A stretch of DNA of 64,000 bases. Origin: Cavenderia fasciculata (taxonomy: Eukaryota > Evosea > Eumycetozoa > Acytosteliales > Cavenderiaceae). Position 1 is the stretch's first letter, and every line of letters starts with the position of its first letter. A model generated the notes under the pieces. The model saw only the letters and a program-made list of their open reading frames with translations, was not told where the DNA came from and searched no databases. Made by a program: the position numbers and the translations under genes. Shown here in pieces: positions 3,071 through 10,292 of the stretch. The stretch spans positions 434,001-498,000 of the forward strand of contig NW_004457708.1 of assembly GCF_000203815.1 (NCBI RefSeq), given 5' to 3'.

Positions 3071-3763
3071 TTATTGAGATGATGATTTTTCAGGTTCCGG
3101 TTCATAGTATCCATAACAATATTTTGTGTCTGGATGTTTATATTCTCGTTGATGTATAACAGAATGAGATGATGTCCGACAAACCAATTGACACAAATCA
3201 AATTGGTCATGTGGTTCTCCAATAGGAGATACACCCTCTACCATTTGAACGAGTACTGCTTCCAATGTCTCTTGTCGTGCACCCAAACAACATGATACAC
3301 AATAGGTATATTCTTCACAACACCTATATTTACTTGAACATCCATTACAAGAATATCTATCAAAATTATTTATATTACAACAACCCGAATCCAATTCAGA
3401 TCTTAAACAAATATGTCCTAAAAAAAAAGAAAAGAGTTAATAAATAATTCTATCTTTATCTTTAACTTTAATTTTCTATTTACCTTGATCGTCAACAACA
3501 TATTTTGAACTTTGTACAGTATATTTACAATAGGTGGAGTTGTCATGACTATTACGATTAGTTTGAACACCCCATTGAAAGTTTAATCTATTTACCAATG
3601 TTTGTATTTGTCTCTTGTCTATGGTCTGTTTTGGACTGTAAGGGTCATTGCCTCGTCCTCCTCTACCCCCACTATTGGTATAAAAGTTTAGAAAGATGAT
3701 TGAAGATACTACAAACAATGCCAATACCGTTATGGTTGGTAACAGTGCCTTTCTCGATATCAT
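3071..3763 (-). CDS. SPRING (C12orf49/SREBP-regulating gene) family membrane protein
   Basis: Two exons, 3763-3484 and 3417-3071, give 208 aa, close to the roughly 205 aa of the human protein. In animals SPRING is a Golgi/ER type II membrane protein needed for site-1 protease and SREBP processing. Seen here: a hydrophobic signal anchor at about residues 7-27 (TVLALFVVSSIIFLNF), then a lumenal Cys-rich domain with the family's signature order GCCNI, SCNGC, CCEEYTYCVSCCL, FDLCQLVCRTSS, and a KYCYG motif near the C terminus. The intron joins DDQG to HICLRSELDSGCC in frame. An upstream in-frame ATG at 3847 would add 28 residues. The inner Met (3763) is preferred because it places the anchor at the N terminus. 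The gene converges on the HRD1-type gene with 96 bp between stops. Confidence 0.87.
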
Positions 3764-4072
3764 CAATTGAATGATAAAACCTAATCTATCTATTAATAGA
3801 TAGGTAGGTAGAGAGAGAGAAGAAGAATATTCTTTAAACACACACACTGCTTGTTAAGAAACTATAAACTATATATATATATATTTATATTGCAGCACTA
3901 CATAATATGTTTATAAATAAATATTCTCTTTTAGATAGAATGATAAATAAATAAATAGATGAAAGCGAATTCGAACAACTAAAATAAAATCGAATAATGA
4001 ACTTTTCAACGTGTCACAGTGAATCACTATGGATTAAAAAATAAATTAATAAATATTTTAAATACATATTAT

Positions 4073-7011
4073 TTATTGATTGTTGTTGTTGTTGATATTG
4101 AGGAAATAAATTGAAAAAGGTATTTGATATTTAAAACTAAACAACTTTCTTTGGTCTTTTGGTTTTGTTTGTTGATTCTCTATACAAATCGATCGTGTAA
4201 CTAAAATATCTTCAACAGACATTGATTTAAATATTGATGGTGGAAGAGGAGGAAGAGGAGGAGGAGGAGGATTGATTTCTTCTTTTGTTGTTATTGTTGT
4301 TGATTTAACCCAATCAATGACTATTTTCCTTGCCAATTTAATTTGTTCAGATGATTTTATAAACAAATCAATTTCATTTGGTGTCATTTCAAGTCTACCT
4401 GGAACTTGATTGACCAAAAACTTTTTATCCAAACAATAGACTAGACATTTAAATCCAACCTCGTATCGATTGATAGAACCAGTATAGAAAATCGAATCTA
4501 ACCAATCCAATGTTTGTTTGTAATAGGTCAATGTTCTTGTTAGTCCAAATGGTTTGTCTTTAGACTCTGATAATATTTCAAACGCTCCAATTGAATGTGC
4601 CAACTTTAAAATGTCAAGAAAATCATCTCTAGAAAATACCCATTTTAAAAAGTCTAAAAAATCTCTACCTCTTAATCTTGATATAATCTCTTCTTTTACA
4701 ATTGATGATTTAATAAATCTTTTAGTATCCATTGATATTTTCATATCATTTTCAATTGATTCTTTTATAATACTAAAAAATAAATAAAAGGTTAATTAAT
4801 AATAAATAATAATTACTTTTAAATTTATATCAATGTTTAATATATATTTACCTAAATAATAAAGATGGATCATTTATAAAAGAATTGGAACGATTGATTC
4901 TAACAATATTATGTTTAATGTCATAAATCGAGTTGAATAAATCATATAAAATAAAATGATTCTTGTCCTCGACATGTACAACCAAAGATTGGAATGAATA
5001 ATTTTGTTTTGATCCAATATACATAATCTTTGACCTACTTGGATTATTTTCACTATATAAATCATTTTCATTAACTATTTTTAGTTCTAAATTATATTAA
5101 ATTATTAATATAAGATATAAATGTTTGATTATCTTTTTGTAAACATACCAATAGTATACTTACCATTTTTTAAAATGATATTATTATTATTATTATTATT
5201 CTCTAATTTTAAATCCCATTTGTTTGATTTAATTGATCCCAATTTACTGTTAAAGAGATTGATATCATTTGTAAAAGTAAATAATTGAATGGTATCAACT
5301 TTTTGAATAACTTTATAAATTCCAAAAACAGTGTCTCCATAGAGATAAAGACTAGTACCCATCTCTTTTGTAATCAATCGAATTTGTTCAACCATATTTT
5401 GAGCAGTCATTGATACACATTTAAAATATTCATTATAAAATTCAAATTGTTGATAATTATTTATATTTATATTCATTTTAATCCTACATTATAAAATAAA
5501 ACACACAATTTGTATTAATTATAAAGTATCTTTAAAATTTTAATATATTAAATACATACTCTTGATTCTTAATTAATTGATTATTTAAAATTGATTGATA
5601 TTGATTCATTTTAATAATATCATTATTTGAGTTGTTCATTTGAGAATTGATCATTAAAAATAACATATTTTTAACTTGTTGTAAACTAAATGCTTTAATG
5701 GTTGCAGAGGAAGCATGGTGATGTCCACCTCCACCAAATTGTGATACAATCTCACCTACATTGATATCTGGTTTTTGTTGACTTGATCTTCCAATGACAA
5801 TAATACATTCAGGAGATTGAGCGAGGAAAATACCAGTTTTAATATCCTTGTTCATTTCCATTATAGTTTGTATAATGGGAGAGAGTGATGGACAAGCACC
5901 ATCAAAAACAATTTCCCCAATATGAACTTTAAAATCTTCAGAGCAAGATGAAGACTTTTGGTGTTTAAAAGTGACTGTATAAATTGATTGACAAATATTT
6001 TCATAGATTGTCATATCTTTAGCTGAAAATGTTTTCATTGATGATATTTGTAATAAATTATTATATGATGTTGATAATGTTATATTTGATAAATTACTTA
6101 TTGATGTATTTTTTGTCATAATAGTTGGAGAAGAGGAAGAAGAAGAAGAGGAATTGGAATCAATCGTTGACGATTCATCTTTAGGGATTAAACTTTTTCC
6201 ACCCAACTTTCTAATTACATCCATTTTAAGATTAAATCTTGATAAATATTCAATTGCTTCAAAATCTATATGATTGGTTGAATTATAAGTTAATCTTCCT
6301 GTATCTTCATATATTCCCATTGCTAGCAAAAGAAAGTAGATTTGTGTTAACATTTGTTGTACAAATTTGAATAACTATTTAAATATTAATATTACCAATG
6401 ATTGTTGCAATATCAGTTGATAGATTTATCAATGGAGTATTTTGTTGATTATTATCATTTTTGAGTTTATTGATCATCATGGAAGTACATGCACCACATT
6501 GTTGAGAATCTACTGATATTTGATTGACGCTGTCTTTGGCAACTCTTGGTTGAATGTCATCTTTGGTATCGGGATGATGATCGAAAACGGTTATCGTCAA
6601 TTGTGGATCTATCATATCACTTGTCATCGATGACACCAATGAAGAAGAGGAGGAGGAGCTTGTTGGAAGATGTCGATACAATATCTTGTGTATATGTTTG
6701 AGACGTGCTATTTTCTTGGTGTCAACGATAATGATGTGACTTGTATTATCGATAACATCTTGACTAGGTGACTCTCCACTGATAAAGTTGAAACGTGACA
6801 ATATATTGGATCGATGTTGTTGATAGAAATCCATCATATGCTTGTACTGTGTAGGTGGTAGATAACATATAACCTTGTACATCTGTTCCTCGTCCAAATT
6901 ATTGAAAAATGAAGAGGTTGGTCTGTTCTCTTGAATGATAAAAGAACAAACTATCGATGATAATGTATCATAGTCACTTGCTATATGTCCTGTTATTAAT
7001 ATATATTTCAT
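4073..7011 (-). CDS. DHH/DHHA1 phosphoesterase fused to a CCA-adding/poly(A)-polymerase-like head
   Basis: Five exons joined by canonical sites and kept in one frame: 7011-6396, 6322-5560, 5483-5164, 5086-4852, 4772-4073 (877 aa). Residues 1 to about 420 are a DHH phosphoesterase: motif I ASDYDTLSS (11-19), IVD near 96, FDHHPD (DHH at 144-146), GIYEDTGRLTY near 208, then a DHHA1 domain with FGGGGHHHASSA near 400. From about 490 the protein resembles the class II tRNA nucleotidyltransferase head and neck: LYLYGDTVFG in the place of the GGxVRD motif, and NDPSLLFSII near 640 in the place of DPxRILRAxRF. The order DHH-DHHA1-nucleotidyltransferase is known from bacterial A-adding/CCA-type proteins, which normally carry two CBS domains between; none is visible here. 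The metal-binding DxD of the head is not preserved, so that domain may be inactive or regulatory. The DHH half looks catalytically complete. The fusion is strong if the intron 5559-5484 is real. It could otherwise be two adjacent genes, since an ATG sits in frame at 5476. Confidence 0.75.
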
Positions 7012-7184: not shown

Positions 7185-7631
7185 TTAGTTATCCTTTCTT
7201 CTTTGAGAATCAGAGAATATTTCAGGTAACTTTGATAGTTTTAAAAGTACGATAAGAATACTATTGGCGTTATTCAATAGTTGAGTCTGTTCAGATTGAG
7301 TTGCCTGACGATGAAAGTCCCACATCTCTTTGGCATTGACTCGAATCTTGTTTCGTACACTTGCTACCAATGGCATTTGATAAGATGCTCTAATCAATTT
7401 TCGATACATTTTTAATGATTGTGGATCTGCTGTTGTAATCTTTATCACCTTTGACTTGTTTGTTGTTGTTGTTGTTGATATTGTTTCATCATTCTTTTTA
7501 TCATTATTATTGTTTCTATTATTACTACTACTATTTGAAATGAATCGTTTAAATGATTGTAAAGATGGTGTCCCAACAACAACAAGTTGGTGTTGTTGAA
7601 TAATTCTACTTGTAATTCTATTCATATTCAT
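7185..7631 (-). CDS. LYR-motif mitochondrial protein
   Basis: Single exon, 148 aa. The first 35 residues are Arg/Ser rich without acidic residues, as in a mitochondrial targeting sequence, followed by an Asn/Thr-rich spacer. From about residue 72 there is a Complex1_LYR-type helix bundle: LKMYRKLIRAS, with Tyr-Arg of the LYR motif, and a downstream conserved-type RNKIRVNAKEMWDFHRQ segment. LYR proteins act in the matrix as adaptors for Fe-S cluster delivery or respiratory-complex assembly, working with acyl carrier protein. Which member this is (LYRM1/LYRM9-like or another) cannot be decided by eye. It lies 173 bp upstream of the DHH fusion gene on the same strand, but nothing suggests shared function. 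Confidence 0.65.
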   Translation of the reverse strand: MNMNRITSRIIQQHQLVVVGTPSLQSFKRFISNSSSNNRNNNNDKKNDETISTTTTTNKSKVIKITTADPQSLKMYRKLIRASYQMPLVASVRNKIRVNAKEMWDFHRQATQSEQTQLLNNANSILIVLLKLSKLPEIFSDSQRRKDN

Positions 7632-8259
7632 AGCTTAAGTGTTTGTTTGATGAGATCAACAATGAAAACATTTCTAGTTGATTATCATTCTTCAAAAAAA
7701 GATCAAGACCATTTTTTAAAAAAAATACTTTTATATGTTTGTTCATAGATAAACATATATATTCATTCAATCACTTCAAGAATATTCTTTGTCATCTCAC
7801 ATGATACATCTAGATTCATAGAGGTAAAAGGACTTGGGGGTGGTCAATCTAAATTCTCTCTGGAATCTATCAATAGTAAAGAGAGAGAGGAGATAGTAGT
7901 ATTTAGTGCCAAGTAGTAGTAAAGTAGAATCATCTAATCATTGTTAGAAATAATGGAGTAAATGTGCTTATTTTTTCGTCTTTAATTCCATCAAGAGACT
8001 CTATACTCTATTTTGCTTGCGTCATCCCTTTAAATTAGTTTCCTTTTTCTTTCTTTTTTGAAAATATCTTGGCCGCGAGACTCATAGATCTTTCTAATTT
8101 TCATTCAAGATATCTATTAAGGTCATCGCGGTAGACTATTGTTATTGTATTCATTTGTATATTATTATTATTATTATATCTTTGTTATATATATTATTAT
8201 CTTGTTATATATATATATTTTGTAAATATTAAACTTTAAATAGAATTAGAAGAGACGAA
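7632..8259. promoter_or_regulatory. Divergent intergenic region (628 bp)
   Basis: Lies between two divergently transcribed genes, so it should hold both promoters. It has A/T tracts, purine-rich GAGAGAG near 7880, a CT-rich stretch near 8040-8060, a short GC-rich island (TTGGCCGCGAG) near 8070, and a TA-rich segment ending 40 bp before the + gene. No gene is visible. Confidence 0.4.
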
Positions 8260-9551: not shown

Positions 9552-10292
9552 TTATTGATTATTATCCTTTTTATAATTTAAATATTGAGTATAGGATAAT
9601 GTCTTTTTAGAAGATTGATATCTTGTCAATTTAATAGTTTTCAAAAAGGTTTCATCCACTTTTCCATGGTATCCAGCTTTTTTAACCAATGATCTAAGTG
9701 CTTCTTCTTTTGTCCATTCTTGTTCGGGCATTACTTCTGGTAGATAGGTTGCATTTCTCTTTTGACCGTCAGTATTGAATTCAATCCAAATGCCATGTGT
9801 TCCAATTTCCCAATCCCAACAATCTTTGGCATCTTCAAATTGGACAAGTAGTGATACAGCACAACTTAACTTTTCAAGTTCTCTTTGTGGTATTGGTTTA
9901 AATCTATCATCTTTTAATGCACTAAAATAATAGACAGATAAAATAGGTTAATTATTAACTATTTGTTGTATTCTTCTTATTCTTACGTACCTTGACAAAG
10001 CAAATTTATTTAAACCTTCAACCAAAGGAATATTTGAAAAGGTTCCAATACATCCTCTTAATTCATGATCGCCTTTACCATGCTTATCAATCTTCCATGT
10101 AACAAATAATGGGCTAAATGAATATCACACAAATATTAGTAAATGTCTCTTTCTCTCTTTTTCTTTTTGATACACATACAAAGGGTCATTTGTAAAAGAT
10201 GGTTTATATAATTTCTTTGATTCATAATGTGAAATTAAAGAATCAAAACAATAAGAAACCATTTCATCTGATACTTGAATACTTGATGCCAT
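9552..10292 (-). CDS. AMMECR1-domain protein
   Basis: Three exons, 10292-10180, 10113-9991 and 9921-9552 (201 aa), about the length of the bare AMMECR1 domain. The family hallmark LRGCIGTF is present, preceded by FPLFVTWKI. Further conserved blocks are ALKDDRF, LEKLSCAVSLL, FEDAKDCWDWEIGTHGI, TYLPEVMPEQEW and TIKLTRYQS, all in the order found in human AMMECR1. The long N-terminal extension of the vertebrate protein is missing. Biochemical function is not established in the family; the conserved surface suggests a binding or catalytic pocket. Small exons and lack of internal Met codons make this gene easy to miss in simple ORF scans. Start is at the Met preceding ASSIQVSDEM; stop follows DNNQ. 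Confidence 0.9.

Follow-up and report, generated by a model that had tools for sequence, protein, structure and literature searches.

A single five-exon gene of the dictyostelid Cavenderia fasciculata appears to encode a DHH-DHHA1 phosphoesterase joined in one chain to a degenerate nucleotidyltransferase. The gene lies in the 64,000-nucleotide stretch analyzed here (the window: RefSeq assembly GCF_000203815.1, contig NW_004457708.1, positions 434,001 to 498,000; all coordinates below are those of the window unless another locus is named). A first-pass annotation made from the letters had proposed this fusion, and on the sequence evidence assembled below the overall observation holds. We consider it moderately probable that the protein descends from a bacterial fusion, with a live DHH-DHHA1 part and a dead transferase that serves in binding, dimerization, or control. 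The features on which this reading draws are as follows.

4073–7011, minus strand: whole gene, five exons, 877-residue protein (one open frame after joining exons)
6186–7002, minus strand: DHH domain, residues ~4–251, exon 1 and the start of exon 2 (Pfam, DHH-half HMM, motifs)
5643–5846, minus strand: DHHA1 domain, residues ~365–432 (Pfam, DHH-half HMM)
5484–5559, minus strand: intron 2 (76 bases), separating DHHA1 from the transferase half (predicted from sequence)
4866–5422, minus strand: putative degenerate nucleotidyltransferase head, residues ~481–640, exons 3–4 (MAFFT, spacing, motif score)
5338–5321, minus strand: GDTVFG, residues 509–514, in the likely place of GGxVRD (MAFFT, spacing)
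5302–5279, minus strand: KVDTIQLF, residues 521–528, in the likely place of the DxD strand (MAFFT, spacing)
5009–4983, minus strand: KQNYSFQSL, residues 593–601, in the place of RRDFTxNAL (alignment)
From 4874, minus strand: NDPSLLFS, replacing EDPxRxxR (alignment)
4328–4889, minus strand: neck and body, A-adding/CCA-adding-like, residues ~633–793, exons 4–5 (phmmer, hhalign, HMM)

Gene Structure and the DHH-DHHA1 Half

The exons (7011–6396, 6322–5560, 5483–5164, 5086–4852, and 4772–4073, minus strand) join across four predicted GT...AG introns, each of 73–79 bases and 79–91% AT, into one frame of 877 residues with zero internal stops, in agreement with the single frame proposed earlier, although the splicing is predicted only. 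Exons 3–5, which cover 1255 bases at 74% AT, contain one in-frame stop, the terminal one. Base shuffles of the same exons (n = 500) hold a mean of 38.5 stops and a minimum of 21, and the remaining two frames contain 59 and 28.

The DHH-DHHA1 half looks like a live metal-dependent phosphoesterase. Pfam DHH matches residues 4–209 (30.3 bits, cut-off 28.1) and Pfam DHHA1 residues 369–425 (27.2 bits, cut-off 25.9), while an HMM of the DHH half of the bacterial fusion family described below aligns in the stretches 5–113, 133–254, and 329–430. All motifs of an NrnA-type DHH-DHHA1 nanoRNase (DxD, VD, DHH, (E)D, and GGGGH) are present: SDYD at residues 12–15 (DxD 13–15), VD at 96–97, DHH at 144–146, EDTG at 211–214, and GGGGHHHASSA at 402–412 (GGGGH 402–406). 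The positions of these motifs are invariant or almost so across 71 bacterial sequences, and DxD, VD, DHH, and GGGGH fall within one or two residues of the places given by the first-pass annotation, which had called the phosphoesterase intact-looking. Because the catalytic motifs are kept, this half looks active. Its conserved blocks are separated by Ser- and Asn-rich stretches, a common feature of dictyostelid proteins.

Relation to a Bacterial Fusion Family

Both halves of the protein match one family of bacterial fusions in the same order. The NCBIfam model NF041569 (A-adding tRNA nucleotidyltransferase) matches the whole protein in three stretches that cover both halves (E = 3.7e-28, 98.3 bits), which bears out the domain order, that of bacterial A-adding or CCA-adding fusions, recognized earlier by eye. 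Taken alone, the DHH half (429 residues) scores 60.4 bits against this model, followed by 29.6 bits for NF053633 (bifunctional oligoribonuclease/PAP phosphatase NrnA), and the transferase half scores 41.1 bits, with NF041569 as its sole NCBIfam match up to E 10. The curated cut-off of NF041569, 1440 bits, is reached neither by the window protein nor by any of the bacterial fusion-bearing genomes compared with it (0/7). The CBS pair is absent, as had been stated: neither Pfam nor the fusion-family HMMs give a CBS match in the window protein.

Bacterial relatives were collected by scanning genome contigs with a two-row alignment of the window protein and P0001, a cyanobacterial fusion in which Pfam finds DHH, two CBS, PolyA_pol, and PolyA_pol_RNAbd domains, with DHHA1 slightly below cut-off. 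The scan found 101 relatives, of which 80 were kept; these and P0001 make 81 rows, and dropping 10 rows shorter than 820 residues left the 71 counted throughout. They come from Cyanobacteriota, Thermodesulfobacteriota, Myxococcota, Nitrospirota, Synergistota, Bacillota, and other phyla, and 31 of them, none cyanobacterial, were used for the spacing and alignment of the head. A full-length MAFFT alignment that included the window protein set its head against the CBS gap, and the halves were therefore handled separately. Against HMMs built from the 71 fusions, the window protein scores 149 bits for the DHH half, 61 for the transferase half, and 38.4 for the neck and body, compared with 6.4, 6.1, and 5.1 for the best of 1000 shuffles. 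Residues 1–432 and 587–800 each outscore five shuffles against every bacterial row (71/71).

Of 297 genomes sampled from the phylum of one Desulfatibacillum genome (G001, which carries locus L041), 254 match the window protein; among the matches listed for those genomes, open frames of ~900 codons are common, and most matches to the transferase start at residue 593. A phage collection gave no match and a plasmid collection one, a Pseudanabaena fusion. Shortened relatives also occur. In two Salinicoccus loci (L086 and L087), positions 4001–5281 encode a 427-residue DHH-DHHA1-CBS protein, and the 9.3 kb of the locus analyzed show no transferase match; this is a naturally occurring version of the fusion family that lacks the transferase. 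The Desulfatibacillum genome has a 442-codon frame matching model positions 1–428 in addition to a full fusion. In two cyanobacterial loci (L012 and L026) the frame stops within the transferase half and similarity continues downstream, in another frame in L012 and in the same frame in L026; these are either broken genes or assembly errors.

The Transferase Half

The neck and body of a nucleotidyltransferase are readily recognized in the second half of the protein. The best PDB matches by phmmer are 1vfg and 4wbz (E 1.4e-6 to 1.5e-6), deposited as poly A polymerase, which we take to be the Aquifex aeolicus A-adding enzyme; their residues 104–245 align with residues 594–736 of the window protein, in which the RDFT and EDPVR residues of these structures are not kept. 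Next comes 3h37 (E 3.4e-5), deposited as a tRNA nucleotidyl transferase-related protein and presumably the core of the Thermotoga maritima CCA-adding enzyme. Against the bacterial profile, hhalign gives a probability of 97.5 over residues 595–792 and aligns nothing before 595, so that with phmmer the alignment is firm from about residue 594. The nucleotidyltransferase similarity claimed from the letters is thus found by phmmer, NF041569, and hhalign alike.

The motifs of nucleotide addition have been replaced. Across the 71 bacterial rows, the G, G, R, and D of GGxxRD are each present in 71/71, the two DxD positions in 70 and 71, the R, R, D, F, and T of RRDFT each in 71/71, and the E of EDPxRxxR in 69/71, with its D, P, R, and R in 71/71. 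The window protein lacks all four sets, and the transferase half is degenerate, as had been proposed. Within the aligned part, EDPTRIIR has become NDPSLLFS and RRDFTINAL has become KQNYSFQSL, whose first two letters sit at the edge of the firmly aligned stretch. The first-pass annotation had found no RRDFTxNAM-like block; its residues are indeed replaced, but a degenerate block does exist at 593–601. The DxD, likewise said not to be kept, is missing as such, since residues 440–660 contain no DxD or DxE and their sole [DE]x[DE] is END, at 573 and 652, but one of its Asp residues seems to be kept (DTI). Because GGxxRD, DxD, RRDFT, and EDPxRxxR are replaced, we judge nucleotide addition to be lost, and the sequence makes such activity very unlikely.

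The start of the head can be recognized just by position and weak motif similarity, and its first two motifs are probably, though not certainly, aligned correctly. Pfam PolyA_pol does not match the window protein up to E 10, and a head-only HMM is not significant (6.4 bits versus 7.1 for the best shuffle). When the start of the head was tested with gapped profiles, 1/300, 1/300, and 5/300 shuffles reached the window score. Ungapped tests of the head motifs were negative, with the score reached by 451/5000 segment shuffles and 1289/2000 whole-protein shuffles, a failure that we would ascribe to long cyanobacterial inserts in the profile. With a profile of 52 non-cyanobacterial rows, 32/3000 segment shuffles reach the score and the motif fits best at the expected site; when the whole protein is scanned, this profile fits best at residue 210, with a score reached by 8/600 shuffles. 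MAFFT alignment of the 31 bacterial rows placed GDTVFG and DTI at GGxVRD and DxD unaided, and the distance from the G to the place of RRDFT is 84 residues, compared with 86–91 in those rows and 101 in the cyanobacterial P0001. Folding of exon 3 gave a poor model from the single sequence (pLDDT 39.6) and a pLDDT of 58.4 with the 31 bacterial rows, high only at ~residues 21–60 of the piece, a helix-strand-helix; guided as it was by the alignment, this fold is weak evidence.

Descent

Since each half scores best against NF041569, the gene most likely descends from a whole fusion. Its ancestor would be a bacterial Nrn(DHH-DHHA1)-CBS-tRNA nucleotidyltransferase fusion that arrived as a unit; the CBS pair and the catalytic residues of the head would then have been lost, and the neck and body kept. 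The sequence makes this course, of arrival as a unit from a bacterial type followed by loss of the CBS pair and of the transferase motifs, the most likely one.

Trees of 72 rows give the window protein an end branch of 3.2 in the DHH half and of 10 in the transferase half, both with long-branch warnings, as if constraint fell more in the transferase half than in the DHH half. In the tree of the DHH part with bacterial homologues, a comparison suggested in the first-pass annotation, the window protein falls at support 96 within a group of 27 rows, 18 of them from Cyanobacteriota, 3 from Bacillota, 2 from Synergistota, and the rest from elsewhere, but under a long-branch warning for which we do not trust the tree. 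In the transferase tree, also with a long-branch warning, no supported set holds the window protein. Because of these warnings, we draw from the trees no choice between transfer and old retention.

The amoeba's own genome (31.0 Mb, 21 contigs, searched in six frames with introns not removed) contains two other PolyA_pol genes (L001 and L002), in keeping with the two CCA genes that passages of PMC7432833 give for each of six dictyostelids, C. fasciculata included. An origin of the transferase half from these genes looks unlikely: residues 587–800 score 48 and 46 against L001 and L002, and shuffles score 46 and 44, in a crude comparison of six-frame translations with introns left in and of 10 shuffles against one frame only.

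Proposed Function and Comparison with Known Systems

Most likely, by analogy with known enzymes, the protein acts as a phosphodiesterase on short RNAs or dinucleotides and retains its pseudo-transferase for binding, dimerization, or control. The DHH-DHHA1 cleft would hydrolyze short 5′-phosphorylated RNAs or dinucleotides (nanoRNase, pAp, or pNpN type), the dead head, neck, and body would serve as an RNA-binding, dimerization, or regulatory part, and no nucleotides would be added. The substrate is a guess from NrnA and NrnB. DHH-DHHA1 proteins cleave RNAs of 2–4 nt, pGpG, or c-di-AMP, according to passages of PMC12709177, which also list tRNA nucleotidyltransferases as one of the architectures containing these domains; the literature passages at hand describe no DHH-domain activity within the fusion family. 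An Orn-type oligoribonuclease is present in the amoeba's genome, so a second nanoRNase may be superfluous.

Compared with the bacterial Nrn-CBS-transferase fusion, known from passages of PMC8208693 and modeled by NF041569, the window protein has the same order of DHH, DHHA1, head, neck, and body, and differs in lacking the CBS pair, in its four replaced motifs, and in being the product of a eukaryotic gene with introns. The CCA-adding enzyme of T. maritima likewise joins Nrn-type domains, which on our reading are DHH-DHHA1, to a transferase. There, passages of PMC8208693 describe the Nrn and CBS domains as accessory and dispensable for CCA addition by an active transferase, whereas the reverse seems to hold for the window protein: in the amoeba the Nrn part seems to have been kept and the transferase to have become a relic. 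The stand-alone nanoRNases NrnA and NrnB (passages of PMC12709177) share DHH-DHHA1 with all its motifs but have no transferase half, and the window protein is a longer chain whose DHH half scores 29.6 bits against NrnA and 60.4 against the fusion. Prune and CDC45 are eukaryotic members of the DHH superfamily too; according to passages of PMC3307487, Prune bears DHHA2 and CDC45 groups with RecJ, whereas the window protein bears DHHA1 of the bacterial fusion type.

Among the matches listed in a mostly non-subscription literature, we found no spliced, CBS-less eukaryotic member with a dead head, and "DHH" is absent from the main text of the dictyostelid CCA paper (PMC7432833). If our reading is true, an accessory half has outlived its main enzyme, and the protein is a candidate for the breakdown of short RNAs or cyclic dinucleotides in a eukaryote rich in diguanylate cyclases.

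Alternative Explanations

The same data could reflect a decaying gene, in which the transferase half is unconstrained and the DHH part alone, or nothing, is used. The replaced head motifs, the missing CBS match, and a transferase end branch ~3 times the DHH one would all fit, and the transferase half may have evolved faster through decay rather than by taking on a new role. We nevertheless regard decay as unlikely, because the 418 codons of exons 3–5 remain open although 38.5 stops would be expected at 74% AT, the body is still matched in PDB at E about 1e-6, and the introns look normal. There is still less to be said for two genes or products, in which a DHH-DHHA1 protein would stop within a retained intron 2 and the ATG at 5476 would start a second, transferase-like one. 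That ATG does lie near the start of exon 3, and if intron 2 were retained, an in-frame TAA at 5534–5532 would end the DHH part few codons beyond exon 2; but the intron (87% AT, GTATGT...TAG) resembles the three others, and in bacterial relatives a single chain holds both halves, arranged alike. That the nucleotidyltransferase is active despite its unusual motifs is hardly credible, even though the neck and body are kept and one DxD Asp seems to be: RRDFT and EDPxRxxR are replaced, residues 440–660 are without DxD or DxE, and two other PolyA_pol genes are at hand, comparable to the pair of CCA enzymes that passages of PMC7432833 give for each species. As for the substrate, the rank of NrnA, an oligoribonuclease/PAP phosphatase, as second-best model for the DHH half (29.6 bits) would suit a phosphatase of pAp, the by-product of sulfate assimilation, instead of an RNA enzyme; at half the score to the fusion family, it makes this reading very improbable.

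In dictyostelids, c-di-GMP is a developmental (stalk) signal. Like some bacterial DHH-DHHA1 enzymes that act on dinucleotides, the DHH part might open c-di-GMP or clear the pGpG derived from it, a possibility that we think improbable but worth setting out. The genome contains 13 GGDEF (diguanylate cyclase) matches over cut-off, with SGDEF in 13/13, and passages of PMC10559540 describe an amplification of dgcA in D. fasciculatum, to 13 genes. EAL and HD_5 are unmatched in the same genome, although intron-cut genes can escape such a search, and its three DHHA1 matches are the window gene and two ends that by eye are alanyl-tRNA synthetase-like. Cleavage of pGpG and c-di-AMP by DHH-DHHA1 enzymes is on record (passages of PMC12709177), and the phosphodiesterases named in passages of PMC10559540 and PMC4686194 are cAMP ones; the word is absent from PMC10399225. 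Together, the presence of GGDEF, the unmatched EAL, HD_5, and further DHHA1 phosphoesterases, and the naming of cAMP phosphodiesterases only make the protein a candidate enzyme for breaking down c-di-GMP or pGpG. Against this, we found no functional link, Orn is available for pGpG, and a six-frame search with introns left in can miss EAL, HD, or DHH genes. It did so with the DHH of the window gene itself: a PF01368 search of the genome returned nothing, the window gene included, and since this intron-cut DHH was also missed, the result is no proof that DHH genes are absent. That the protein is the missing dictyostelid c-di-GMP/pGpG phosphodiesterase, with the dead transferase half as a nucleotide or RNA sensor or a dimer scaffold, is a long shot, and we continue to prefer the broader reading of a fusion descendant with a live DHH-DHHA1 part.

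The GGDEF matches (loci L097–L109) are spread over contigs C1, C3, C4, C7, and C8, and their count agrees with that in passages of PMC10559540. Eleven of the 13 are 89–99% identical to one another, with L098 and L106 more distant, and some of their open frames are short (140–220 residues) and may be fragments or intron-split.

Neighboring Genes

Several other genes were recognized around the fusion gene in the window. Directly upstream, at 7185–7634 on the minus strand, an open frame could encode a small protein (148 residues at most) that has no Pfam match and contains, by eye, an LYR-like motif (MYRKLIRASY). Downstream, the adjacent gene, also on the minus strand, is a homologue of SPRING1 (SREBP regulating gene protein) at 3071–3436 (103.5 bits), whose likely first exon lies within 3476–3853. 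At 1592–2974 the plus strand encodes a RING finger protein in which one piece weakly resembles synoviolin and Gln, Asn, and Glu form long runs, and an exon of the AMMECR1 family lies at 9552–9947 on the minus strand (101 bits).
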